From Arbacia lixula (lineage: Eukaryota; Echinodermata; Echinoidea; Arbacioida; Arbaciidae): 64,000 nucleotides of DNA. The stretch lies in the NCBI GenBank assembly GCA_963669155.1, contig OZ022593.1:12658296-12722295 (forward strand), given 5' to 3'. The notes beneath the pieces were generated by a model. It was not told the DNA's origin. It did not search any database and saw only the letters and a program-made list of their open reading frames with translations. The first letter of the stretch is position 1. The number at the start of each line of letters is the position of its first letter. Positions 1 through 63,201 of the stretch are shown here, piece by piece. The position numbers and the translations under genes were made by a program.

Positions 1-6082
<6,082 letters not shown>

Positions 6083-11620: not shown

Positions 11621-11844
11621 GGAGGGAGGGAGGGAAAAGAGGAGGGGGAAGTTTATCTTGCACATTTCCTCTTAAAATCGGTCAAGCGTGACGTTGTCCA
11701 AGCGGGTCCAGTTTCTTCAGTGATTGACATTGATTGACGGAGTCATATCACTCCAGAGTATGCTCGTTCCTCCGTCTTGTTCATCTCACGCCCCACGGGG
11801 TTAGCCTAGTTTCCAGACTTTTGGACATGTCAAATTAAAACTTC

Positions 11845-12343
11845 AAGGGAAAGTTCACCCTGAAATTATTTTGGTTTCAATAAAAAGAGACAAATGAAAG
11901 AAACATATGAGTGAAGGTTTGACGAAAATCGGTCAAAGGAAACGAAAGTTATTTGATTTTAAAGTTTTGATTTTGTGACGTCACGTGCGAGGTGCTCTCC
12001 CATATGTTGTGTACAAAATAAGTTGATAAATTGCTTTTTCCCTGTTTTTGACAACGGAATATTTTTTTTTCGTACAGGTATGTGTGTAAAAACGTACTTC
12101 TGATAATGTATCAAACGCACGAGTAAAAGGATGCATATCCTTGTGAGAAAATGCACATTTTCGAAAAAAATTGTACACAACATATGGGAGAGCACCTCGC
12201 ATGTGACGTCACAAAATCAAAATTTTAAAATCAAATAACTTTCTTTTCATTTGACCGATTTTCGTCAAACCTTCACTCATATGTTTCTTTCATTTGCCTC
12301 TTTTTATTGAAACCAAAATAATTTCAGGGTGAACTTCCCCTTT
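11845..12343. mobile_element. Palindromic MITE, family B ('AAGTTCACCCTGAAAT' arms)
   Basis: The left arm from about 11845 (AGGGAAAGTTCACCC...) is repeated in inverted orientation to about 12343 (...GGGTGAACTTCCCCTT). The arms are about 170 bp and highly similar, and include a TTTCAATAAAAAGAGRCAAATGA-type segment. Each arm carries a TGACGTCA palindrome (11976-11983 and 12204-12211). The central part holds 'gtatcaaacgcacgag'-type sequence. There is no coding capacity, so it is a non-autonomous foldback-like MITE. The right flank reads CCCCTTTAA, which allows a TTAA target site as in piggyBac-type elements, but the left flank (TTCA) has diverged. A second copy of the family lies at 60936-61394. 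Confidence 0.85.
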
Positions 12344-12670
12344 AAAAATAAAAGTTTATTCACAACTTCATAAGACTAGTTACTCTGTGAATTCTCCTAG
12401 ATGCAACCTCAGAACCGGAATAGGAATTGAGAATAATATTATTACTCTACTGCAGCAATACATGTTAAATGAATAAATGAGTTAAAAAAGAAAATGTCCA
12501 GCAGCATGGACGTCAGGTTACACGGGGCAGGTGGCAGAGATTGGACCAATGAGCAATCATGACACTTGTCTAATCACGCCCATCTCTTCCACTCCCTTAC
12601 GCATATGACTGCAACCTTGCTTATCTCGTTTATCTTGACCACTTCCCGCAACTCTTACATCTCTCATTAG

Positions 12671-15240: not shown

Positions 15241-17888
15241 TCTGCACGCACTGGACTATAATTTTAGACGACCCGACAAAAAATCAAGATAGATTCTAAT
15301 GGTCAGCTGAAACCCATTTGAAATCTCTTTTGAGTTCGTATATTTAAGTATAGTGTCTTTAAAGATAGCTCGTTCCTTTTACAAATATCTGCAAACTTCG
15401 TGAAAGTTTGCACATATTTAGCACGTATCTGTGAAATTTTAAGGTCAGAAGTATTACAACTCTCGTAAAATGAAATGAAAATCTAACTAGTTTTCACTGA
15501 GATCCAATTGATCGCCGACCAGGGACACAATTTGAAATTACGACTATTTTTCGAGGTACGAAAAAAGAAAGCTCCATCAATTATCGACGATAATTTCCTA
15601 AAAACCGAATATCACGCTTTGTCGATTCCAGGGAAAGGTTATGTAGCCACTCTCTCTCAAAAAATGATGACGAAGTCTGGGAACTCTCAGAATTAGGTCA
15701 GCAAAAAGGGACGGGCTACCTTTAAATAGTATTTCCTTCCAATGACAATTGAATGTACTGCACTTCATTTTATTATTTTGACCTGCACATAATCCCTTTA
15801 ACTATTTATGACAGAAGAACATTTCATGCAACTTGTGGGAATGATGAGAAGATTTAATGATTAACTTGATAATAGACTGTTTTGGGAAGAAAAATGAGAT
15901 ATTTCCTTCGTAGCTATCGAATAGTGAACGTGTAGCTGTCGAAAGTTTGACGCTGTAGGCGCACTTCATGAAGATACGGAGGGTAACTAAAAAAACTGTG
16001 CTTTTCTCTAATACTGACCCCAGCCTGCGTGCACTGCCGTGCAGTAATTATTATCTTTAAGAATGTTCAGTTAACTATCTCAGTACCATGGGTTTGTAAA
16101 AATATACAATGACTCAATGGGGTTTCACAGGATAAAGAGCTGATATGGCTATTTCTAAACAAGAATGTCCATGTATATAGGTTCGAGCCTATAACAGATA
16201 CCGTTAGCTCTTGGTCTAAAATAACTATCTTGTGTGAAGGTATTGCGTTTAGGATAAATCTTATGTGAATTTATTACGCACTTGTATTGTATTGAGACAG
16301 TATCAATTATGCGATATAAGTTAAGAAGCCCACAGGCACCTGTTAGTAGTCAAATTGTATTTATTCTCTTTATGTTTCACTCTTGCAATTTGGATCAATA
16401 AACCAGGGAGTTGGGAGCACTCCTGAATAAACTAATAGTGGTCGTAAATCGGGCGTGTATACAACATCTTTTCTGGTAAATCATATATTTTTCTTGGATA
16501 TGCTTTGCAAGAAATGAAAGGAGTACTCTATGGAGATGTATGGGTTCTCATGGTTTGAGAGAGAGATTGTCGGAAAAATGTCGTTTGGATAAAAGAATGT
16601 CCCAAATGAGACGGTTAATCCTGTCTAGGGTGGGGAGTGGAGCTGGTAGAGGATGAGTCCCGTTCAACATGACATCCTAATCTCCTAATTATGTCATTGA
16701 AGTGGATAATCCGATCCATGTTGGTCATTTTGTTTGAAAACAAAACTAAAGACGCGATCGACGCGTGACATTAAGCGCATACGATTAACGTGATAAAAAG
16801 CACAATGCTCGGCTGACGAATCTTCGATATCGATTATCGATTCATGTGACCAAGCTTCGCACGCTCTATCTCCGACATTCATACATGACAGACCTAAGCA
16901 TCGATTAACCATCTATGTGCTAATATCACATTAATGCACCAGCCATACACACATATCTTATTACGTAACATTTTGTTGAGCACATAACGAGCCCAAGGTC
17001 CCTATGTACAACATGTTCAGGATCTGGTAGGCACTACGAAGCTAATTGTGCGAGTAACCATCATTTTTTTTTTTATTGAGTACCGTTTGATCATAAAGAC
17101 GGTATTAGGGTATTACTGCGAGCACTCCAATGCAGCGTTTAAACACAACATTATATTGTAAAGACCTATTAGCATAAGTTCATTCTTCTTGCGTGAATGT
17201 TGCTGTTTACTATCACCGTGTTAAGTGACGTACGCAATAAGGCAGTGCTGCTTGTGTTTTCGGAGTAAGAATCACACATTAAACATGTGTAATTCATTGA
17301 GCAGCAGACAAAGAAGACAGTGTAAAAACCGAAATGAAAAATAAAAACACCCAATGTCAAGTCCTATATCGAAACAATTCATTTCAGACAATAGAGTATT
17401 GTTCCATTATATAGCTAGAACATGAATCTCAAAACTTGATAATTATTATCTACCTGATGATAAAAGTAAAAATACAAACACAGTGTATGATAATGATGAA
17501 TCAAGCGGCGCATCACGGTTGAATTATCATCTTTATACTGCCAGCACGGCCCATTCAAACCAGTTTACATCCAGGAAACATGTTTTACAAAGGCATGCAC
17601 ATGAAGCCAAACACGTTCACAAGAGTTAATGTACTTTAACAACCTATATTCGTTTTAAAGTTGTTGGTGAATTTGCATTTTTATTTGTCGGTGAGCTTTC
17701 CCGGTGAAGTTCATATTTGTTTTCACCTGAATTTTTTCTTTAGCTATCCCTGTCATGCCGGTATGAAAAGTGCATCGAGATCGAGAGACAAACAAATACT
17801 TTATATGACTGTAAGAATAACTAAAGCAGCTAAATAAGTTAACCAACCACAGAAGTACATGATTTACCTACTCACTAACATACTAACT

Positions 17889-18098
17889 AGATTTCTGACT
17901 ATAAAACAATGCTTTGAATCAAACTGAACTAATAAAAATAATTATCAAGATAAATCCTAGATTTCTGACTAGAAAACAATGCTTTGAATCAAACTGAACT
18001 AATAAAAATAATTATCAAGATAAATCCTAGATTTCTGACTAGAAAACAATGCTTTGAATCAAACTGAACTAATAAAAATAATTATCAAGATAAATACA
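17889..18098. repeat. 70-bp tandem repeat, three copies
   Basis: The unit starting 'agatttctgacta' at 17889, 17959 and 18029 is repeated three times with a period of exactly 70 bases and almost no differences (a T/G change in the first copy). The near identity indicates recent expansion. It is AT-rich and non-coding. Confidence 0.95.
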
Positions 18099-37390: not shown

Positions 37391-38780
37391 AACATATCGG
37401 AAGGGAAGGAAGTCTCTGGGAGAACATGCTACCTTGAACTTGTTTCAGAAGGGGAACATATAAATGATTCAATACAATATATTCGTGTTATATACACAGG
37501 CTACATTCCACTCGAATATTGCTTTAATTGACATGATTGGGCGCTTTCGAAAACCAATTCTGCTCATTCTGAACCAATTGTGGTGTATGCTTGCAATAAC
37601 AGTCGGAAGGTTTCTAAGGGTAAATTGCATTTCATGGCCACGGTGATGATGCTAATACTACGCTAACCTCAGCAAGACTAGCGAAGACTTTTAAATACAC
37701 TCTCCCAACTTTCAAGAGTAAGATGTATTTCGAAATGGTGCTAATGACATTTATTTTCAATATTTTTTATATGGTCATGGGAAGCGTTTATTTTGTGTTT
37801 TCTTTTATAGTTGATCAAACGTGAAATGTACGATATTGCGAGGAGAAAAGTTTCGATTTTAGACCGAAATAGTCAATAACACCCTATGGTCTCTCTTCTG
37901 CTATCTGGTTCAAGGGCAATCTAGGCCCGATCATATTACCCTGACGAATAATACTCCGCAATCTCTAGGTTTTCAGATGCCAGCCTATATGCATGTCCGG
38001 CTGCATCTGATCGGGGTATCGTATTGCACTACTGCACTTTTCACCACCTTCTTCCGCATCCACTTTGATGAAGCCATCGCCATATCCACGACATGGAACA
38101 TAGAATGAAGCGGGAAGCATATGCTATATAATACCACCATACCCTTTTACTGATGGAGGAAGAAACATATTTCTAAGAATGAAGTTATTCACTGTGTGAA
38201 TTGCATTCACCAATAACCATATCCTAGAAAATTTGGAAACATATCTAAATAAAATTATACTGAGCAAAAGCACTGGAATTCCCTCAGCCTCAATATCGTT
38301 GATACGGTATCAACAAATAATATTAGTATAGGCTGATAGACATCATTATGTTACATCATTCTTACATAATTTCATACGGGGTCCAATATTTGCAAGCCTT
38401 GTTTCCTTCTGGCCCCTCCACAACAAATATTGATCTTATGAATGAATTGTGTTTAGAATGTTTTTACTTGTTGTTTATGTCCATTATACCTAAATTCACG
38501 CATTGTTGTTCTCGTTCTCTTGTTGAAAAATACATTGAATCTTGAGAAAGTCTTGAAAAAGTATCTTGGTATAACCAATTTATCATGTGAACTATTATGG
38601 TAAAGTTGATCTATTGTGTATAATCTTTTATTTTGGTGTTATTCTCCGTAGGAATAAGATTGATTTATCAATCAAGTTATTTAGGAACTAATACCCAAGG
38701 TTTCCCTTCTCTTGCCTATACATATTCATTTGTCCCCAGTATTGAAATACAAGTATTTCCTTTAAAAAAATGCATGTTAA

Positions 38781-39116
38781 AGGGAATATACTGTCCTGGG
38801 AAGACAAAAAAAAACTTCAAAAGGTGATCGTGAGCAATCTTCTTGCCAATAGTCTTCAATTCATGTATTGTCCATTTTAGAAACTTACTGAAAATTATTT
38901 TCATTTAAATGATCTACATTTGGAGTGATAAGTAGTTACATCACAAAACCTCAAAGTGTTCGGGCAAAACATTTTGAGGATTTGTGCTTTAATCAACGAG
39001 TACTCCAAATGTGGATCATTTGAATGCAAATAACTTTCAGCAAGTTTATTGGCTAGAAGATTGTTCATGATCACCCTTTTGAAGGTTTTTTGTCTTCCCA
39101 GTACAGTATATGCCCT
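38781..39116. mobile_element. TTAA-flanked palindromic MITE, family A copy 1
   Basis: Runs from AGGGAATATACTGTCC to its inverted copy ending ...CAGTATATGCCCT. Flanks are TTAA (38777-38780) and TTAT (39117-39120, one change from TTAA). The arms are long and include 'gcaatcttcttgccaa' and 'cattttagaaact'-type segments, meeting at a central 'tgttcgggcaaaacatttt' palindrome remnant. It is 336 bp and non-coding. Termini next to TTAA are typical of piggyBac-type MITEs; no transposase is present here to confirm this. Confidence 0.88.
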
Positions 39117-39425
39117 TTATTTTGGTTATTGCATTGGCGCCATTGTAATGATTGGACGCACTTTCTTAATAAATGTAGAAAAAGATCTGTATTCCATTGA
39201 AATGTAAAAGCAATGCATGTGAGCTATGTCAGCGTTGTTCGTGTCTGATGTTAATGGTATAAGATTCAAACGTCAATGTGGTCCCTTGAGTAATAGCATG
39301 GATAAAGGGAGCAAGAGAAACGGAAACGGGGCAAAAACAGTATCAGCGGAATTGAGACAAACTGGGGAATTGGGTCAGAAGGGAAGAAAACGAATACTAA
39401 GTGAGAAAGGTATGAATAAGTGGCA

Positions 39426-39556
39426 GGGGCAATAGTTATAGTAAAGTGCGAGGAAGAGTAGTAGCACAACACCAGTAATGGTAGTATTGATAGTAGGTAT
39501 AATCGTAATAGTAACATAAATACTACCACTAGAAAAAGTAGTGGTAGAAGTAATCT

Positions 39557-39611
<55 letters not shown>

Positions 39612-39624
39612 AGTAGTAGTAATG

Positions 39625-39672
<48 letters not shown>

Positions 39673-39703
39673 TAAGTAGTAGTAATAGTATATGTAGGAG
39701 CAA

Positions 39704-39764
<61 letters not shown>

Positions 39765-39900
39765 TGTGGTAGTATTAGGAGTGGTACTGATTATAGTTAT
39801 ATAAGTAATATTAACAACAACACTATCGAACAGGAGTAGAAAAGGTAGTGACGAGTAGTAGAAGAGCAGAAGGGGTTGTAATAGTATTGCCAGGATTAAT
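39426..39900. repeat. (AGT)n trinucleotide array 1
   Basis: GTA/TAG triplets, nearly perfect over 39557-39770, with degenerate flanks. The 145-codon minus-strand poly-Leu frame is an artefact. Confidence 0.96.
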
Positions 39901-41009
39901 TCAAGTAGTAGGACACGTAATTATTGACAGGTATAGGAAAGGAGTAAGATAATTTGAAGTATCAATAAAACAAGAAATGATGGGCAAGGACGCAAGTGTC
40001 TAAATTCGTGCTCTCAGTTTTATTCAAAGCGAGAACAATTATAATATTTTATCGATATTTCAAATATACATTTACTTGACGAGATGTTTCACAGTTATAA
40101 ATAAATTCTTCAAAAACTCTTTCTTACATCTGTCAAACATTTTATCGGAATATTTGAATAGAACATAAATGTAATGTTAAGCACTTGATTGCGATCGCCC
40201 TAGCTGTCTACATGAAAGAGCTGATATACAATAAAAATATGCTGAAATATCAAGGGCCCCATTTCGTACAACTCCACAATCGATATTACTTTTTCTTATG
40301 CGTGAACTATGGGAACGACCACAATGCCCATACCTCATTGGGCGTTTCCATAATAGTTACGCTCTTTGTACTATCAAAATGTGTTAATGATTGTAGAGCT
40401 ACCATTAAAATGACGCTCATACACACGGGGAGAAAAAAAAATGATTATAAACTTTAAAGATCACAACCCACAATAAAATTATTATTCAAACAACATTAAT
40501 CTACTATGAAGTATCTCCCGCTGACCGTGACATCATGAACACGACTTAAACACATGTCGGGCTGATCTGCCAACAAGAACAAAACAGTTAAAAATTATTT
40601 CCATATGAAAACTCATAACAAATTATAAATGTCGCATAACTTCATCTGAAATGCCATTTATCACAAACACGTCATACAAACATATTAAACAATAAAAGTG
40701 GCGCGGCAGACGACGCAACATCACCATGGCAACTATTCATTGTACTATCCGCATATTCCATGGACAATAAAGCGTAAAAATGTTCGTCTTGTTAACTCTT
40801 GGGCGTAGCCTTACATCACAGGGCACATCATTATTTCACGTGATAGTAACCAAAAAATACACACGCTCAGTCAGCATAAGACGTAACCAAGGAAATCGAC
40901 ATACATGTAGATTATCATTGCTGTTGTTTTGTTTGCAGTTCAACTCTTTATGCGCCATTGAGGCATTTTGCACGGGTAATACACACCATTCCCGTATGCC
41001 TGCACGGTA

Positions 41010-41463
41010 CTATAGTACAATAGTAGTAGCCGTAGAAGAAATATCAGTAGTAGCAGTAGAAGCAGCAGTAACGGTAGAAGCAATAGCAGTAGTAACAGTA
41101 GTAATATTGGTATAAAAAGTAGTAGTAGTAGTACTACTAATAGGAGTAGTAAGAGTAGTAAGAGTAACAATAGTAGCGCTAGTAGTAAGTAGAAGTCGTT
41201 GTCGTCATAGTAAAAGCAGCAGCACTAGTAGCAGTGGTGGTATTACTATCGGTAGTAGTAGGAGAAGTACTAGTGGGAGTAGAAATAGTAGTAGTAGTAG
41301 TAGTAGTAGAAGAGGTACTATGAGTAGTAGCAGTAGTCGTAGTCGTAGTAGTAGTAGTAGTAGTAGCAGTAGAAGTAGGAGTTGAAGTAGTAGTAGTAGT
41401 TGTTGTAGTAGTATTAATTACAGTCTGCAAAAACAGTAGTACTATTGAAATGCGTAGCAGTAA

Positions 41464-41511
<48 letters not shown>

Positions 41512-42445
41512 CAGCAGCAATACAAGTACCAGTTATTGTAGTAGCAGTAATATTGGTGGTAATTGTATGAGTATGAGTCTTAACATATTCATTAGTGGCA
41601 ATGTTTTTGTTATTAACATTGCCATCATTATCAGCAATGGCGATAGCTGTATTTACTTACATGCTGATGTATATTTTTTTTACACACGTACGAGTGAACA
41701 GCAACATCACTGGACGTAGTAGATGTCGTACTAGTGAAAGTACTAGAGTACTAAAGTACTAAAGTACTAGAGTTCGTAACAACATCATTAGTATTATAAG
41801 TAATATAAGTAGTAGAAATAGTTCTTGTAGGTATTGTAGTAACCACATTTGTATTAGTAGTAGAGGTGCCGGTAGTAACAGTATACATAGAAGAAGTAAT
41901 AGTAATAATTATAGTAGTAGTAGTAGTAGTAGTAGTAGTAGAAATAGTAGTAGTGGTAGTTGTGGTGGTAGCATTGATAATGATAGAGGTCGTAATAGCA
42001 GCAGAATAGCAAATCGTAAGCGTAATGCTAGTCGAAGCTGTACCGGTATTTACTGCAGCTAATTGGAACAGTAGTACATGTTGTTGTAGAAGTAGTAATA
42101 GTAATGATAATAATATCACCAGCAGCACAAAAAACAAAGTATATGGTTATAGCTTGAGGTCAACAATGATAATTATCCAAGATCAGTAGTAACAGTATCA
42201 TAATCATGAAATGTATTAAAAAACATAACATGAATAGCACAGGCAGCACTTATCTAGAAGTGTAATTTTGATTAAGAATTATGATGATGGATATTATGAC
42301 TGTTATCTATTCAATAATGGGTAATAGTGGTAGTAGTAAATGTATAAACAACATTGGTAGTTAACGTAGTAGTAGTGATAGTATTAGCAGTCGCGGTCGT
42401 AATTGACAATAGAAGTAGACGCTATGGTATAAGTAGTAGTAGTAA

Positions 42446-42497
<52 letters not shown>

Positions 42498-42644
42498 TGT
42501 AGTAGAAGTAGAAATAGTATTATCAGCAGGAATGGTATTAGTCGTCGTGTCACTTGAAGTTGTTAAAATGATAGTAGAAAGAGCAGCAGGAACATCAGTA
42601 GTAGGAGAAGTAGTAGTCCATGAAGTAAAAAAGATAGTAAAAGT

Positions 42645-42695
<51 letters not shown>

Positions 42696-42718
42696 GAGTA
42701 GTAGTAGCAGTAGTAGTA

Positions 42719-42751
<33 letters not shown>

Positions 42752-42821
42752 TTTGTAGCAGTAGTAGTAGTAAAGGTAGTAGTCATAGTAGTAGTAATAG
42801 TAGTAGAACTAGTAGTAGTAA

Positions 42822-42871
<50 letters not shown>

Positions 42872-43160
42872 ATAGAAGTGTTACTGGTAAGAGTAGTAGT
42901 AGTAGTAATACTTGTAGTTGTAGTAGTAGTAGTAGTAATACTTGTAGTTGTAGTAGTAGTAGTAGTAGTAATAGACATATAGTAGTTGTAGTAGCAGCAT
43001 CACCATCATCAGCAGTAGCAGTAGTAGTTACAGCAGCAGCAGGAGCAGCAGAAATCGTAGTTGTAGTAGTAGGAGTAGTAGAAGTAGAAGTAGTAGTAGT
43101 AGTAGTAGTAGTAACAGTAGTTGTGTCAGCAGCAGTACTAGAAACATCAGCGGCACCAAT
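41010..43160. repeat. 2.1-kb degenerate (AGT)n array 2
   Basis: Long AGT/GTA arrays with dense cores at about 41290-41400, 41464-41518, 41920-41960, 42430-42500, 42640-42880 and 42895-42970, joined by variant triplets (AGA, AGC, GTT, CGT). Substitutions mostly keep the three-base register, so unusually long frames survive on both strands, up to 219 codons (42532-43191 +) and 204 codons (42783-43397 -). They encode Ser, Val, Leu or Thr runs. I do not regard them as genes. The interval 41525-41750 is less repetitive. Confidence 0.93.
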
Positions 43161-43279
43161 AGCAATATTAGTAGTTTCACATCTCATGTAGATCGCTGAT
43201 TTCCGCTTCGTGGCAAATTTCCTGTATGTGTTTTGACAAAATACGAATATCGCAGAACAGCTTCTCATCTTAAACAATA

Positions 43280-43560: not shown

Positions 43561-45360
43561 CAAGAGTCGGCGTATACCATATTTCAATGTTAGCCGACAC
43601 AGTTAGATTTCCAGGTGAAATGCAATGGTCGGTACAAACCCGTTCAAAGTAATTTTTGTTATATCATTGTGAGGAATGTTCTTAAACAATATGTTCTTCC
43701 CCTTACCTTGCTAAAAAATAACCTGCAAATGGGCCACACTCCTTCTAAATCCACACGTTCAATAATTGGCGAAACCTGCACTCTAGTCTTATACTGTATA
43801 ACATGCCGAAACAGTACACTAGCTATACATATTTTTCCCGCACTCTCTTCTCAGAGAAAAGGAGAGCTGGACTGGTACCCATGAATTCAATAAATACAAC
43901 ACTAATGAAATAAATAAATTCAAAGAACAGATAGAAAGAAAAAAACTACTCATACATCAAACATGATGTTATGGTCATTTGTTGTACATTTGCAAAGTTT
44001 TAAAAGTGTTTCCATCCGTATTCACTCACATGTTCAAGCACGAGACAACATGATCTCTTGAAGGAAACCTCATAAGTTACGAGGCCATTTCAATTTCCCG
44101 ATCGTGTCTAAGATAGAGCGGATCCACGTCATGTATCGGATGTTTTATTCAAATATATTAATAGTAAAGTGAACTAATTATATTATCTAAACGAAAGTTA
44201 GTATCACAGGAGTAATAGGATAAGTTAAACCTTCATGCGCCATTGTTGCGTTTTTGCACATAAATCTTATTAAGCAGGACTTTGACTGGCACACGAAGGA
44301 TAAATTTTGTCCCAATTTTTTTTCTTACTTTGTTACGCACTCCGGGACGTGACATCAAAATAAATCGTTATGTTCAGAAAGAGATTTTTATCATTTGTAA
44401 CAAATTGCAACAAGTACAAACGAATGCTGTCTGGCAACGTGATTTAACCCGCTACGTCCCACTACCGCTTCCTTGCGCAGGTAACACACATATACCCCAT
44501 GGGGAATAGTCATGTCTGACACGGGGCAGGGTAACGTGTGACTGAGGTGAACCCGCATTGACTGGGCACTGACTTGTAACACTTCCCCCCGATAATTGTA
44601 TGTGTACGTGGAAATCAATCTTCCCGCCAATGTCAGGTCTTCAGAAGATGGGTAAAACATTCAGGGCAGGAGGGGAATCAGATAGTGATGATCGCCTCCG
44701 GGGTATTGTACGTCCCAACCTCCTCCTTGACTTTACAAGGAAGTTGGCTTTTCGATCACATTGTCTCCTGCAGGCGAAGCGGGGGATTTCCAGATGAACA
44801 CAATGCCTGGTGTAATGATTCACTATATATGCTTTCTTATCACGCGTACGTGTCTCCTCTAGCAATTACGTAAACCCACAAGTGCTGTTTTTTTTTCTTG
44901 GGACGTGGAATAAACATTTGGAGTGTGCGAAAGCTTCTTTTAGACCGTACGTTCACACTGACGTCATCTTAATCGCTAACGACACAACCGTTACATGAAC
45001 TACACGGGATATTCAAGAGAAACACTTTCGCTGAGCAGGGGAGATGTTTGACAGCATATCCATTAAAAATGTGCTGTACTTTGTTTGAGGAGCTACCATA
45101 TGATGAAATGTTCTAAAAAATCATCATCGCTGCTTTCTAAAGATGAAATGAGTACAAACTTTTTCAACAGGAATATTAACAAAAATAACAATTTCAGAGT
45201 ACATGAAATAGTAGAGAGTGAGGGGAACCGAAACCAACACGGACATTATTTTGGTGAGAGATAAACGGTACAATGACATTTATGTGCCCGACTATCACTT
45301 TCAATCTGCCTTATACGCCATGTACGCGAAACCCAACTAACAAGCTGATTTAGCCTTTAA

Positions 45361-45725
45361 AGGGCATATACTGTACTGGGAAGGCAAAAAAGCCTTCAAA
45401 ATGTAATTGTTAGCAATCTTCTTGCCGATGGTTTTAAATTCATGTATTACCCATTTTAGAAACTTGCTGAAAGTTATTTGCCCTCAGATGATCCACATTT
45501 GGAAAAATTAATGATTATCAATAAAATCCTCCAAATGTTCGGCCCGAACATTTTGGGGATTTGTGATTTAATCACTAATAACTACAAATGTGGTTCAATG
45601 GAGGGCAAAATAACTTCAGCAAGTTTCTAAAATGGGCAATACATGAATTTAAGACCATTGGCAAGGAGATTGCTCACGATCACCTTTTGAAGACTTTTTT
45701 GTCTTCCCAGTACAGTATATTCCCT
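45361..45725. mobile_element. TTAA-flanked palindromic MITE, family A copy 2
   Basis: AGGGCATATACTGTACTGGG at 45361 is repeated inverted, ending CAGTATATTCCCT at 45725. Exact TTAA lies on both sides (45357-45360 and 45726-45729). A central palindrome 'atgttcggcccgaacattt' lies at about 45535-45553. It is 365 bp, closely related to copies at 38781 and 54438, and has no coding capacity. Confidence 0.93.
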
Positions 45726-46731
45726 TTAATGTGCATACATGACATGACTGTATGATAAAATACATTTCTAAAATCAACATTCGCAGAAATATTTGATGTG
45801 CCTCGCGGTCCTTAGCTTGTCACATGTTAAAGTGTGTTCACACAGTGCATGTATGCGGGTGTCACGTCAACGAATCAAATTACTTTCCCCAACCACATAG
45901 TGACAGAGTTTCACCTTGAGGTGGACGGGCAGCGGCATAACATGTCAATGTGAACGGCGCCATTAGGCAAACCTAGGACCTCGAGTGTCAAATCGGTCGT
46001 AATCATGAGACAAGCTACTTGAATTACTTAAATTGCTTTATGATAATCGTTTAAGATAGGGCGTTACAAATGTAAATAATGGATATGACATTGTTTATGA
46101 GGACATCAATCCTTATTTCACGATTCCATGAATTTAACATAATAATGCTTAGAAAGTCGTCGTGATGTTAAAGCCTCTCGTACCCTCAGGACATTAGGAC
46201 TTGTTTATACGAGGCGACTTTTCGCGGTGATTTTTCGGACATAAAAGTTGTTCTCACACACACCATGTATACCGGGCAGCAGTTATAAGCTCTTCACATG
46301 CAACGAGTGTAGTACTTCACAAGTAAAACTTCACCAGCACTGCTTCTCATAGAGATGCCTAGCACAGGAAGGTGTAATAAACCGTAATACTGTCTTCATT
46401 TTTGTTCAAATGAAAACTAGATAAAAGACAGCATTATGCATCATGCAATACGTATGCTAGCACTTGAATGTAAAATGCTGTCCTTAACAATGTTGGTGAT
46501 GTAATGTAATAAAAAATATCATTAAGGTAGGAAACTATAAGGTATTGAAACAAAACATGCTTAAACTTTTACGAATAGAATACATCATGTCAGAATAGCT
46601 CTTTCGACATGGCGCATGGAAACAAAATCGACACACATAATTTATATAAACATTGATATAGGATGTGAAAATAAGAAGTGAAGTGGTGGGAAGCAACAAA
46701 ATAATTCCATGAAGGATTAAAATCACGATGT

Positions 46732-54292: not shown

Positions 54293-54437
54293 AATACGGT
54301 CAGCCTAGCTTGAAATCACTCATTTAAACTCACTGCTTTACCGAGCGACAAACAACTTGTTTGTTGATATGAGGTGACAAACTATCATTAACAAAACCCT
54401 TTTCGCCATGGAACAAATCTCATCATGACATCCTTAA

Positions 54438-54801
54438 AGGGCATATACTGTACTGGAAAGCGAAAAAGCCTTCAAAATGTAATTGTTAGCAATCTTCTTG
54501 CCAACGGTCTTAAATTCATGTATTGTCTATTTTAGAAGCTTGCTGAAAGTTATTTACCCTCAAATGATCTACATTTGGAGTAATGAGTGATTAAATCACA
54601 AATCCTCAAAATGTTCGGCCCGAACATTTCCAGGGTTGAATCATTAATCATTAATTACTCCATATGTGGATCATTTGAGGGTAAATAACTTTCAGCAAGC
54701 TTCTAAAATAGACAATACATGAATTTAGAACCATTGGCAAGAAGATTGCTAACAATTACATTTTGAAGGCTTTTGTGCCTTCCCAGTACATTATATGCCC
54801 T
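54438..54801. mobile_element. TTAA-flanked palindromic MITE, family A copy 3
   Basis: AGGGCATATACTGTACTGG at 54438 is repeated inverted, ending TATATGCCCT at 54801. Exact TTAA target duplications lie at 54434-54437 and 54802-54805. It has the same central 'tgttcggcccgaaca' palindrome as copy 2, is 364 bp and is non-coding. Confidence 0.93.
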
Positions 54802-54959
54802 TTAAGATAAGGTGAAGAGGGAGACCGAGACCGGGACGAGGCAACTTGTCATGAAATTACATGTGAGTGAAAAGACTTTCTGCTGTAATTCAAATTTGAA
54901 GACTTTTTTTTATGCATTGACTCATTAGTAAGGATAAAATAAATGGAAAAGAAATCAGA

Positions 54960-56279: not shown

Positions 56280-56900
56280 ACCGCGCGCGTACGTACAAAG
56301 CAGTGCATGCAAGCCTTCCATTTATGCATTTCCCCCACACAGTATTTCACCAAAGCAAGTGTGCAATTCTCTACTATCTCGTACCAAAATTGAACTAGAA
56401 TTTCACTTTCCTGCATTTTATTAGAATTATGAAGGGTATTCTCGGAGGATCTATGTTCTCACCGATACCGCACAGGTAAGCGAATTTCGATTACTTCTTG
56501 CTTTTCCGACAAAATCTTACGAATTAGCGTCACTATGGCATAGTGTTCGTTGGAATTTGTAGAGTCTATATTGCAACGTGCACAAAGGCGTGTGTACGTA
56601 TGTACACGTACTCGCAGTGCAAGCCTTCCATTTCTCGGTACATTTCCCCACACAGTATTCTACCAAAACAAGTGTGCAATGCTCTATCACCTCGTACCAA
56701 AATTGACCTAGAATTTCACATTCCTATATTTTATATGAATTATGAAAGGTATTCTCGGAGGATCTATTTTCTCACCGATACCGCACAGGTAAGCGAATTT
56801 CGATTACTTCTTGCTTTTCCGTCAAAATCTTACGAATTAGCGTCACTATGTCATAGTGTTCGTTGGAATTTGTAGAGTCTATATCACAACGTGCACAAAG
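56280..56900. repeat. 310-bp tandem duplication
   Basis: Two direct copies with a period of 310 bases ('aagccttccattt' at 56311 and 56621). Identity is very high over the part containing 'ttctcggaggatctat', 'ctcaccgataccgcacag' and 'gtgttcgttggaatttgta'. Both copies keep 'gcacaggtaagcg', which resembles a strong splice donor, but no reading frame is maintained across both copies. It is probably part of the same mobile or structured unit as the foldback that follows. Confidence 0.93.
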
Positions 56901-57228: not shown

Positions 57229-58829
57229 TTCCAATTTTAAACATTGTTGCTATGTCAAACGTGTCATCTTCAGACTTGTTTTGTAATTGTTTCCATGAAG
57301 TTCTTGATTCACTGGAGGTCGTACAATGGATGGATAGTAGGGAAACCCTATGAAGTAATGAAATAACCATTTTTACCTGATTATATGACTGAGAAAAACC
57401 TTACATGTATGATTATGAATTGATCACTTCGCGGTATTAAAACGTACATAAGTAATTCTTACCCAGACAAAACAGCAAAAGGTTCGACAGGAGAATCAAG
57501 TGTTGTGTAAGACTTGTATATACAGAGAAATGTTACAATGTCCCACAATCTTTAACCCATTTGTGTGTCAGATATACTGATGCTCTACGGGCATTGTGCG
57601 TGTCGCTGGTGAAAAAGGGGGGGGGGGGGCGCAAGTTGCTATGGGGTATTAAACAGGTGCATCATCTTTCCTAGAAATTTCTCTCAACATCTCTTGTAAA
57701 AGTCCAAAGGATCGACTTTGGATAAATCCTGCAATAGAACGCGAAGTGTTTCACCGAACTCTTAATCTAGTTATTTTTTTTTCTAAATGCGGTAAATTTC
57801 TTGTAAGTACTTTTCTGTATGTACTTCCGTGCTCAGAGATAAACGTACTTTCTGTGTGCATTTACGTACTTAAGTACTTCTGTATGTTTTGTTTTCACCT
57901 AGCAACATTTCATACAAACATATTTTTAAATCATGCCATCTTATTTTCTTTTGTAGATGAGACGTCGTCCTGAAGCTCAAAAACCTTTTAACAATTACAC
58001 ATTAACATCGAATAACAAACTTAATCATGTGGCATGATAATAATGTAAAGCGGTTGTTGACGTATTTCAAAATTCCACTGTTGTCTATAAGAAAGGGAGT
58101 CACAACCATATATCCACATGAGCCTAATTAAATGTCGTTTTACGTCATACGTTGCTCCTTATCTTTCAAATAATGTTATAGGATATTTTCCTTTAAAAAA
58201 TATTACTTGAGCCTCTTATCATGAGGATTTTTTTCTTAAAATGTTCTTTCGTTGATTCTAAGCACATTAATCTTCATAGTACAATTAAATTAACGAGCAG
58301 TAGAGAGGCAATGTGATGTTAAATGGTAACCATAGTGACACGCTGCTTTGATGGATCTTTCTAATACGTCAGATCCTTCATGCCGGATTATGACGATAGC
58401 ACGTCGTGTCATTCTAGGCGTACATTCTACTTTGAATCGTTACCAAGACATGTGGTAGATATGAAATGAATACAGCTATTGTTAAATTTCCTCGTACCTT
58501 GACAGGAACGAACTAGATGAGGTCGAAGTTATCATACGATGAAATGCTACGTTGATGAATATATCACCTTTTCTAAAGGCTTATGGCCCAAACAATATGT
58601 TTGCTGACTACGATGTTTTTTTTATTGATTTCTTTGTATTTACATTTTCTTTTACAGCGCCATCAAAAAATCTAATTTATATAAAGGTATATACCATATC
58701 ATTTTGCTTTATTCGTGTGATTATTTTTTTGCAATTTGACCATCAAGATCATTCTTACAATTCTCGTCACGATTTCAGATACCATGGCCAGTATTAATAG
58801 TTATAATGCAAGAGGGAAGTCATTAATAC

Positions 58830-59026
58830 CTGTCGTTCAGCCAGCAGTAGATGAATGGGTTATACATTGAACTGCTCATGGCCACCAACCAGATGGCGAT
58901 GTATATGTGACGACTGCCCCTCACCATCAGCGCCTTGGGGTTGAGATACGTCATGAAGTGGTAGGCGTGGAGGGGCAACCAGCAAATTGCAAACACCGCT
59001 ACCACTATCACGATCATTTTCACGAT
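58830..59026 (-). CDS. Tachykinin-receptor-like GPCR, TM6-TM7 exon
   Basis: Minus-strand exon of 197 bases (acceptor cccccttacag, donor AG followed by GTATTA at 58829-58824) encoding 66 residues including the shared Arg. It begins IVKMIVIVVAVFAICWLPLH, which is TM6 with the CWLP toggle motif of class A receptors. A short third extracellular loop (NPKALMVRGSRH) follows, then TM7 with IYIAIWLVAMSSSMYNPFIYCWLNDR containing the NPxxY signature (NPFIY). The exon begins and ends at the same positions as the corresponding exon of vertebrate tachykinin receptors and has the same number of codons. The 'LAMSxSMYNPxIYCW' style of TM7 points to the tachykinin/natalisin receptor group; neuropeptide FF, NPY or orexin-type receptors are less likely alternatives. 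Exons for TM1-TM5 are upstream, to the right, and none was found in this window. The product would sit in the plasma membrane and couple a neuropeptide to G proteins (family knowledge). Confidence 0.93.
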
Positions 59027-59402
59027 CTGTAAGGGGGTTGGTAGGGGGAGGGGGGGGGGGGGGCGTGGAAGAGAGATTGGAGAGAGAAAAAGAGTAAAGG
59101 CAATTGAATGTTTGTCATCATGTGTGTGTGTGAAAGAGGTCAATATATATATACTTGAAGAATATTATCCTTGTATATATAGTGCTCAATGTCCTTCACA
59201 GGGAAACCTTTAAAATAATAATACACACGTTCCAACGGACTGTATGTTCATCAGGTTTATTGCCTCCAAACGTAGTTGCCTCTGAGCAATAAACATGATG
59301 ATCCCACTGTCATCCGTGTGAACTTGTATCGCTTTTGTACTATTTTTGTATATATATATATATGTATGTATATATATATATTTACATCTATTCATCGAGG
59401 GC

Positions 59403-59442: not shown

Positions 59443-59536
59443 AGGAAAATATCAGGAGGAAGAGAGAGTATTGGGGTTAGAGTGAAGCAAGATAGGGTAT
59501 ACCTTTTTTAAAATTCACTAAGCACTAAGCACGAAC

Positions 59537-59670
59537 GAACAGATTACAACATGTATGAAATATGAGAATTATAGCTTCACGATACTTTTCGGGAACAGTG
59601 AAAACTATACTTCCTGAATCTGTTAAAGATTATAGCTTAAGCAAATAAATCAAATGTAAATGATAGCAAA

Positions 59671-59708
<38 letters not shown>

Positions 59709-61485
59709 TGCAGGTATCGAGCTAAATAGAGATGTGGGGAGGGGGAGACATTCAAATGTAAATGTCTATCTAAAAATTTAAAAACAGGGTAGCCCTTTTC
59801 TAAAATTTATGAAACTGAGCATGTAGGAACATTTTATCCTGACAACAGAATGTATGACATATCACAATCATACCTTCTTGGACCTTTTCAGGAGAAAAGA
59901 AAAACTATACTTCTTAAACTTGTTAACGATTGAAACTTTCAAAATAGATCAAATGTATGAATGTAAATGATAGCGAAAGAGAGATGATGTAGATATCGAG
60001 TTAGATAGAGATGCGGGAAGGCAGAAACATTCAAATGTAAATGTGTTACAAAAAAAAGATAGGGAAGCCCTTTTATAAATTTCATGAAAGTAAGGATGAA
60101 TGAGCAGTTTACCCTGACAACAAGATGTATGAAATATCACACTTATATCTTCATGGACTTTTTCAGGAGAAAAGAAGAACTATACTTTTTTAAACTTGTT
60201 AACGATTGAAACGTTCAAAATAGATCAAATGTGAATGTAAATGATATGGACAGAGAGATGATGTAAATGTAAATAAAAACAAAATTCAATAAAATTCAAT
60301 ATGTAAGGTGAAGAACAGAGATGAAACAAAGCAATATAGATAAATATGAGTTGATGAGCGATTTGGAAAAAACCCGTGAAGTATAAAATAAGGGAAAACA
60401 CAAGGAGGGAGAGAGAGAGGGAGAGAGAGATAGAGAGAGAGATAGCGATGAGAGGAAAAGAAAGCGAAATGAATAGATGCCATGAGTAACATAAACGAGA
60501 AGCAGAGAGAGTGAGAGAGAGAGAGAACAAATCCCCGAGGAAAAGCAAAAATCGTTACGAAGTTTTGTTTTCAGTTGGATATGGACCAACTCGGAAAAGG
60601 TAGTGGTTATCTCTTAGGGTAATCTGTCAATGTCATGTACTAAAGCGAACAATGGCATGTTTTTATTTCATCAATTATATTATTCATTCCATTTGCTTAT
60701 AATAAAAAGTAGCTCAGCAATATGGACAAGTAATGTTTTCATGGTTTGGGGATAAATCCGTGCCGTCGCTGCCGGTGCGCCAATAGCATGGCTTAATTCT
60801 TTGCGAGCCAAATGAAGTGCTGCTCTCTGGCTTTTATGTGTTTTACCTGTGCAAAAAGCGCACGTCGAGCCCAAAGGGTTACTGCATGTTTCATGCTTGC
60901 CACCACCAGTCCCAAATGCGTGTATGTGTTCACGTAAAGGGGTAGTTCACCCTGAAATTATGTTTGTTTCAATAAACGAAGGCACATGAAAGAAACATAT
61001 TAGTGAAGGTTTGATAAAAATCCGTCAAAGGGATAGTTCATCCTGAAATTATGTTTGTTTCAATCAACGAAGACATATAAAAGACACATGTTAGTGAAGG
61101 TTTGATGAAAATCCGTCAAAGGGATAGTTCATCCTGAAATTATGTTTGTTTCAATAAACGAAGACACATAAAAAAAGCATATTAGTGAAGGTTTGAGGAA
61201 AATCCGTCAAAGGATAAGAAAGATTTTCTAAAAAAAAATATGTATCCTTTCACCTGTGCATTTGATACATCATTTACACAAATGCATCTATGGAAACAAA
61301 TTAAAAACAATTTATGTACTTATACTGTACACACTGTTTCTTTCATGTGTCTACTTTTAATGAAACCAACTTATCTCAAGGTGAACTATCCCTTCAAATC
61401 ATTGCACCGCCTGATTACAGGGCTAAATGATGAAAACTCTGTACGTCAGTGACGTATTTTGCAGTAATACCATGAAAATCCCACC

Positions 61486-61533
<48 letters not shown>

Positions 61534-62500
61534 TTTATGTTACCCATGTCATCTATTCATTTCGCTTTCTTACCCTCTTATCGCTATCTCTCTCTCGTCA
61601 TCCTTTTGTTTTTCCCTTATTTCATACTTCACTGGTTTCTTTCCGAATTGCTCGTCAACTCATCTTTACTTCTCTTTTTTGTTTCATCTCTGTTCTTCAT
61701 CTTACACATTGCATTTTATAGTATTGTGTTTTTATTTACATTTGAATGAATCCCCATTCCCGTATCTCTATCTAACTCGATACCTACATCATCTATCTGT
61801 CGCTATCATTTACATTCACATTTGATCTATTTTTAAAGTTTTGAAACAAGTTTAAGAAGTATAGTTCTTCTTTTCTCCTGAAAAGGTCCATGAAGGTATA
61901 ATTGTGATATTTCATACATCTTGTTGTCAGGGTAAACTCTTCATACGTCTTTACTTTCATGAAATTTATAAAAGGGCTTCCCTATCTTAACATTTTTTTG
62001 TAACACATTTACATTTAAATGTTTCCCACCTCCCGCATCTCTATCTAACTTGATATCTACATCATCTCTCTTTCGCTATCATTTACATTCATACATTTGA
62101 TCTATTTTGGAAGTTTCAATTTTCAAAGTTTAAGAAGTATAGTTTTTCGTTTCTCCTGAAAAGGTCAAAGAAGGTATGATTGTGATATGCCATACATTCT
62201 GTTATCAGGGTAAACTGTTCATCCATGCTCAGTTTCATAAATGTTAGGAAAGGGCTGCCCTATCTTTAGATTTCTTTTGTAACACATTTACATTTGAATG
62301 TCTCCCCCTTCCCGCATCTCTATGTAGCTCGATATCTGCGCTCTCTCTCTTTTGCTATCATTTTCATTCACATTTGATTTATTTGCCCAAGGTTTAATCG
62401 TTAAGAAATTTAGGAGGTATAGTGTTTCACTGTTCCCGAAAAGGATCGTGAAGCTATGATTGTAATGTTTCATACATGTTGTCGTTAGGGTAATCTGTTC
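59537..62500. mobile_element. Large foldback structure: about 1-kb inverted arms built of tandem units
   Basis: The left arm (59537 to about 60528) and right arm (about 61487 to 62500) are inverted copies of each other. From the outside inwards each arm holds about three related 240-280-base units containing 'gaacagattac', 'catgtatgaaatat', 'ttttcaggagaaaagaa', 'aactatacttct', 'tagatcaaatgt', 'gatatcgagttagatagag' and 'gggaagcccttttataaa'. These are followed by a unique inner part ('gaagaacagagatgaaac', 'gaaatgaatagatg', 'cataaacgaga') and a (GA)n tract. The loop is about 0.96 kb and contains a separate MITE. Long inverted arms made of tandem modules fit a foldback-type transposon; such elements (the TU family) have been described from sea urchins. 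No transposase or clear flanking duplication was seen, and an inverted segmental duplication is an alternative. Confidence 0.85.
60936..61394. mobile_element. Palindromic MITE, family B copy 2, with 91-bp terminal triplication
   Basis: The terminal segment starting AAAGGG(G/A)TAGTTCA at 60936, 61027 and 61118 is repeated in tandem three times with a period of exactly 91 bases. The element then runs through 'gtatcctttcacctgtgc' and ends with an inverted arm '...aaggtgaactatccctt' at 61394. The central sequence is in the opposite orientation to that of the copy at 11845-12343. Flanking TTAA is degenerate (GTAA / TCAA). Non-coding. Confidence 0.9.
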
Positions 62501-63201
62501 TTTCTGAAAAGGTATCTCAAAAATGTACACATATCCACGGATTCAAATGCACATTCTCCTCCCTCTTACAAACACAAACACACACACAAACACACACACA
62601 CATAACGTACAAATATACAATATGCACATTAACTTATACAATGAAAAAAAATTACAAAGAGCATTGTACGGGGAAGAATGAAATAAAGTAGTTGTAATGT
62701 TTTGAATGCAGCCTTTTCAAGCCCCACAGCAATGCAACATCCACACCACTTTTCAAGGTAAGGGGAGAGAATAGGCATGCCACTTGATTTTCCTCTCATC
62801 CTTTCTTTTCTTTTGCTGTACATACATACACGCAAATCTCTCCCACAAGGTGAGGAAACCGACTTGACGCATCTGGGAGACTTTAAGTCCCATTTGGCCG
62901 TATCTAAAGAAGACTGACTTCATGATCAGAGCATCCTGCGGCGCATCTGTCCATCACACCCACCCCTCTCGCGTCTTATTCTCACATCGGTTGCTTCATC
63001 ATATACAACGTACCGCGCATCTTTCTTCGGCCAACAACTCTAGAGTAGCTCTGACTCTGTCTTTCCAAGCTCACTTCTTTCTTTCTTACTCTCGCCTCTA
63101 TATATCTCCCTCTCCATCTACTCGTTTCTCCCTGTCTATTTATGTATTTGAAAATTGCCACCTCGCTTTTATTTCACTATCTCTCTTCCCCTTTCTCCCT
63201 C

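Follow-up and report, generated by a model that had tools for sequence, protein, structure and literature searches.

The window, by which we mean the whole 64,000-nucleotide stretch of Arbacia lixula DNA analysed here, contains a 3-kb foldback that was probably built where it stands, by local tandem and then inverted duplication of MITE-derived DNA, and that appears to be single-copy and most likely lies in an intron of a receptor gene; we put the probability of this reading at roughly 0.65. A sequence-only reading had proposed two inverted arms of ~1 kb, and self-comparison confirms these at ~59489–60526 and ~61503–62507, the foldback being real and its left limit corrected outward from 59537 to 59489, with the right end at ~62507. 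A single BLAST alignment joins 59546–60526 with 62482–61503 (81% over 1032 columns, gaps included), and in a global alignment of 59527–60526 with the reverse complement of 61503–62507, 848 of the 935 ungapped columns are identical (0.907). The arm-to-arm local score of 1133 compares with a best score of 274 and a median of 24 when 300 pairs of ~1-kb stretches, drawn at random from approximately positions 1–59060 of the window, are aligned in the same inverted sense.

Each arm is modular, as had been described, with three tandem units followed by an inner domain of ~230–260 bp that carries a GA tract at its end (Table 1). The earlier count of about three units per arm holds, and the unit size, given before as 240–280 bases, is refined, the period lying nearer 278 than 240; the right-arm units are spaced at 278 and 280, and those of the left arm at 275 and 299. 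Unit L3 is shortened by a 42-bp deletion relative to R3, which does not have it, and the divergence between the arms is even along their length, with an identity of 0.885–0.922 per segment. None of four open frames overlapping the foldback that were compared with Pfam passes a curated cut-off, with the sub-threshold matches in these frames, to zf-C2H2_7 (E = 0.069) and RecU (E = 0.029), both weak, and tRNA and Rfam scans of the whole window gave no hits.

Table 1. Parts of the foldback and the neighbouring receptor exon, in window coordinates.
Feature	Positions	Strand	Remarks
GPCR exon (TM6-TM7), tachykinin-receptor-like gene	58826..59029	-	foldback upstream, most likely in intron
Unit L1	59489..59775	+	begins at position 5 of MITE 5' end
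Unit L2	59776..60055	+	begins at MITE position 1 (59777)
Unit L3	60056..60264	+	begins at MITE position 4 (60055); 42-bp deletion relative to R3
Left-arm inner domain	60265..60526	+	ends in GA tract; 60262-60404 matches both arms only
Loop, left part	60527..60935	+	no counterpart in right arm
Nested MITE-like element	60936..61395	+	AGGG-type termini; left terminal ~91 bp three times in tandem
Loop, right part	61396..61502	+	
Right-arm inner domain	61503..61733	-	CT tract inward
Unit R3	61734..61990	-	MITE terminus at 61988
Unit R2	61991..62277	-	MITE terminus at 62268
Unit R1	62278..62507	-	MITE homology from ~position 40-47; outermost bases missing

The unit sequence, which had not been recognised from the letters alone, is now about half resolved, with the opening ~150 bp of each unit found to be the 5' end of a MITE-like family dispersed in the same genome. 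Searching the left arm against the whole assembly (607 Mb, 590 contigs), with the best 40 of 842 candidates scored, gave at least 55 matches, two being the arms themselves. At least 28 of the 55 represent a MITE piece of ~90–150 bp outside the window, at 73–81% and on at least 16 contigs, and the other 25, one of them in the window, lie in GA-rich parts of the query. A sharp left edge (consensus TTTAAAGACAGGG) is common to the 20 dispersed matches that were fetched and aligned, these being the first of the 28. Ten of the 20, picked for their long pairwise matches and aligned over the whole element, yield a 471-bp consensus with TIRs of 26 bp (92%), the 3' end being recognisable in eight. Against this consensus, L1, L2, and L3 start at positions 5, 1, and 4, and R1, R2, and R3 at positions 40, 3, and 5, and the units track it to position 136–183 at an identity of 75–82%. 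Unit-to-MITE scores are 110–166, whereas 200 shufflings of R1 never exceeded 62.

The termini of the family are purine-purine (AG), with the consensus AGACAGGG/CCCTGTCT and short TIRs, and single copies vary. By eye in the alignment, TTAA stands beside the 5' end in five of ten copies, beside the 3' end in three of eight, and at both ends in two of ten. These features offer a lead, and a lead only, to the superfamily of the MITE that supplied the units, whose pattern appears Kolobok-like. A TTAA target with AG/AGGRR-type termini is the pattern given for the Kolobok T2-MITEs of Xenopus (PMC6004289), and both this family and the second one described below may be likened to these elements by description alone. 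Among the literature listed, no title concerned this locus or the MITE family, and the family may still be published. A further fragment of the main family, corresponding to consensus positions 322–416 at 69%, lies at 43618–43710 of the window. At another locus (L025), a pair of inverted MITE copies separated by 1.6 kb was considered as a second foldback and rejected; the two copies show different similarities to other loci, and are therefore read as independent insertions.

The order in which the structure was assembled can be read from the identities of its units, with all 15 unit pairs aligned in the same way for comparison. Over ungapped columns, the corresponding pairs L1/R1, L2/R2, and L3/R3 are 0.893, 0.917, and 0.921 identical respectively, compared with 0.797–0.872 for the six within-arm pairs and 0.796–0.868 for the six crossed pairs. 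Corresponding units are thus closer than neighbours, as had been claimed, with three pairs at 0.893–0.921 against twelve others at 0.796–0.872. The inner parts, compared between the arms, are 0.898 and 0.909 identical. A FastTree tree of the six units groups L1 with R1 (0.999) and L3 with R3 (0.981), with a weaker deeper split (0.763). In a six-way MAFFT alignment the corresponding pairs reach 0.807, 0.914, and 0.837, however two values run against the tidy pairing, with L1/R1 (0.807) falling just under R2/R3 (0.814), and L2/R3 tying with L3/R3 at 0.837; we attribute these exceptions to R1 being ragged at its outer end and to the deletion in L3. That corresponding units are the most alike implies that the tandem array predates the inversion, and the like-for-like unit identities agree with the earlier proposal that the inversion is the younger event. 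The even divergence along the arm means that a single inverted duplication, following the tandem expansion, suffices as an explanation.

Two parts of the arms outside the MITE homology were searched for in the assembly, and both were matched at this locus only. For the other half of the unit (59915–60062), all six matches in the 607-Mb assembly are the six units here, and for a 143-bp piece of the inner domain (60262–60404), both matches in the assembly are the two arms. The search detects ~75% identity at this locus, having recovered a unit at 78% as well as the MITE copies, and it passes over simple repeats and words that are very common, so very diverged copies may escape it and their absence is unproven. 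Matches of the inner end elsewhere proved to be GA microsatellite in the six stretches fetched, which take in seven of the twelve such matches outside the window, and where the non-GA core of the inner end scored 32–39, compared with 102 in the right arm. An origin of the units in a tandem satellite was rejected because the unique half of the unit matched the six local units only.

The foldback is most likely intronic in a tachykinin-receptor-like GPCR gene, as the sequence-only reading had suggested, with receptor exons on the same strand on either side of it. The open frame enclosing the TM6-TM7 exon (58826–59164) matches Pfam 7tm_1 (E = 1.3e-12), the exon is closest to the substance-P receptor among solved structures (E = 7e-19), and a splice acceptor was identified by eye at ~59030. 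An exon for TM1-TM4 lies ~40 kb upstream on the same strand, outside the window at window coordinate ~98,970 (L032:5265–5942), and again matches 7tm_1 with the substance-P receptor closest; no exon for the TM5 part was located, and we infer that both exons are part of one gene.

On the reading we prefer, a MITE-like element with a TTAA-like target and AG-type termini would have left ~150 bp of its 5' end beside ~130 bp of other DNA; the MITE homology of the units is observed, and the order of events is our proposal. The resulting composite of ~278 bp would then have been multiplied in tandem to the three units now seen as repeats, presumably by slippage or unequal exchange. The array, together with the GA-ended inner domain, would subsequently have been copied in inverted orientation ~0.5 kb away, probably through a template switch during replication, after which the arms would have diverged by ~9%; the greater age of the array is supported by the unit identities, and the template switch is our suggestion for the route. 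Lastly, the second MITE-like element, which is present in the loop, would have entered it. Since this element interrupts the loop, the loop would beforehand have been ~0.5 kb.

The termini of the nested element are AGGGGTAGTTCACCC and, inverted, AGGGATAGTTCACC. With AGGGRWAGTTCACCC-like termini, it belongs to a second MITE-like family that has two members in the window, at 60936–61395 and 11842–12347, the latter having single termini and in itself forming a near-palindrome (81.5% over 520 columns).

The foldback transposon suggested by the sequence-only reading is not supported. Dispersal of the unit's unique half and of the 143-bp inner piece, and terminal duplications, were sought and neither was found, and for this reason we do not class the structure as such an element. 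There is no sign of the 3-kb structure having moved as a unit. Whilst both termini would be expected of a transposon that has ends of its own, the left arm attains the MITE terminus at 59489 and the right arm begins ~40 bp inside it, the MITE homology starting from 62507 (~position 40) with short gapped resemblance at most outward of this point. At the flanks, where a target-site duplication was sought, the longest shared word is of four bases, which is equalled in 74% of 500 random pairs. A related possibility, which we regard as less likely than local duplication, is that a non-autonomous foldback transposon with tandem repeats in its long arms survives here in a last, decayed copy, sharing its ends with a MITE moved by the same transposase, an arrangement proposed for Tetris and DAIBAM (PMC4079207). 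The modular arms and the relationship of the units to the end of a MITE family are consistent with such a relic, as are the precedents for ~210–220-bp tandem repeats, with about three per arm, in TIRs of ~1.2–1.7 kb (PMC3573991, PMC4079207). The anatomy as a whole, with tandem-repeat arms, an inner domain, and ends shared with a MITE, is that of real foldback transposons and speaks against a local rearrangement; with just three structurally complete copies of Tetris, one survivor of a small family is conceivable, and R1 could have lost its outer ~40 bp through a deletion at some later time. A relic is however disfavoured by the lack of any second copy or fragment of the unique half of the unit or of 60262–60404 among the assembly matches, by the missing terminus at the right end, by flanking words at the level of chance, and by the position of the MITE terminus at or close to the start of five units out of six, and not just of the outermost ones.

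It seems very unlikely that the inverted repeat is kept for a hairpin transcript, whether giving small RNAs against the MITE family or affecting splicing of the receptor. The receptor-sense strand is predicted to fold with 851 arm-to-arm pairs at an MFE of -1476, compared with -835, -680, and -522 for three window stretches of the same length and unmatched base composition, and the arms share 11 perfect runs of at least 21 bases, so that a long hairpin would be expected to form if the foldback were transcribed within the receptor pre-mRNA. However, any inverted repeat of such likeness folds in this way, and the even spread of divergence leaves no part that appears protected. An assembly artefact is more improbable still. 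Inverted repeats can be mis-assembled, and to that extent the structure might be a product of assembly, however the arms have different flanks and different deletions, and their ~9% divergence is, we infer, too great for a mis-assembled duplicate.

The TU elements of sea urchin are another case of long inverted repeats of modular build in the genome of an invertebrate; they differ in that their outer domains are made of short tandem repeats and in being dispersed. The nearest anatomical match to the foldback is Tetris of Drosophila virilis (PMC4079207), with long inverted arms of up to 1,735 bp that carry ~220-bp tandem repeats, an inner domain, portions of the TIRs in common with the MITE DAIBAM, and a non-coding middle. 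Tetris has three copies that are structurally complete and several that are rearranged, with 8–10-bp target-site duplications, along with many repeat units elsewhere; in contrast to this multicopy element, the parts tested here are single-locus, and a MITE terminus lies at or close to the start of five of the six units. Subfamily F of Galileo in D. mojavensis is similar in its 1,264-bp arms with up to three ~210-bp tandem repeats, and differs in belonging to the P superfamily and in having many copies (PMC3573991). In coral CMITE arrays, TTAA-target MITEs and the intervening DNA are multiplied in tandem, which is ascribed to replication slippage (PMC2872659); the tandem growth together with adjoining DNA is alike, however whole MITEs are involved there and no inverted duplication is described in the accessible part of that account.

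To our knowledge, how DNA transposons gain long, tandemly repeated inverted arms is not settled. A single-locus foldback anatomy derived from a MITE end represents one concrete route, by duplication in situ that is first tandem and next inverted. Failing that, the locus illustrates that foldback shape is not by itself enough to make a mobile element. An unlikely extension of the local-duplication reading is that a foldback element has been caught at birth, with a MITE end, fused to host DNA, tandemly multiplied and inverted in place before any transposition, so as to produce a foldback transposon's modular arms with the MITE termini facing outward. On this view terminal tandem duplication is seen twice at one site, the nested element of the loop having its own terminal 91 bp tripled. 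Were this true, long modular TIRs would be a product of local rearrangement, and not of transposon evolution.

Several other features of the window may be recorded. Three copies of a ~350–380-bp repeat, at 38770–39119, 45357–45736, and 54434–54808, match one another on both strands at 75–87%; as the repeat matches itself on both strands, it is probably a palindromic MITE. A direct duplication of ~280 bp (56308–56587 and 56618–56900) is 91% identical, and a tandem array with a ~70-bp period at 17887–18095 is probably recent, given its ~99% identity. Long trinucleotide-rich stretches at 39000–43200 are open in several frames as poly-S/T/L/V; these frames are of low complexity and unlikely to be genes. 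On the minus strand, a homeodomain exon at 5795–6082 (Pfam Homeodomain, E = 2e-15) looks, by eye, paired-like and of the Pitx/Otx type.
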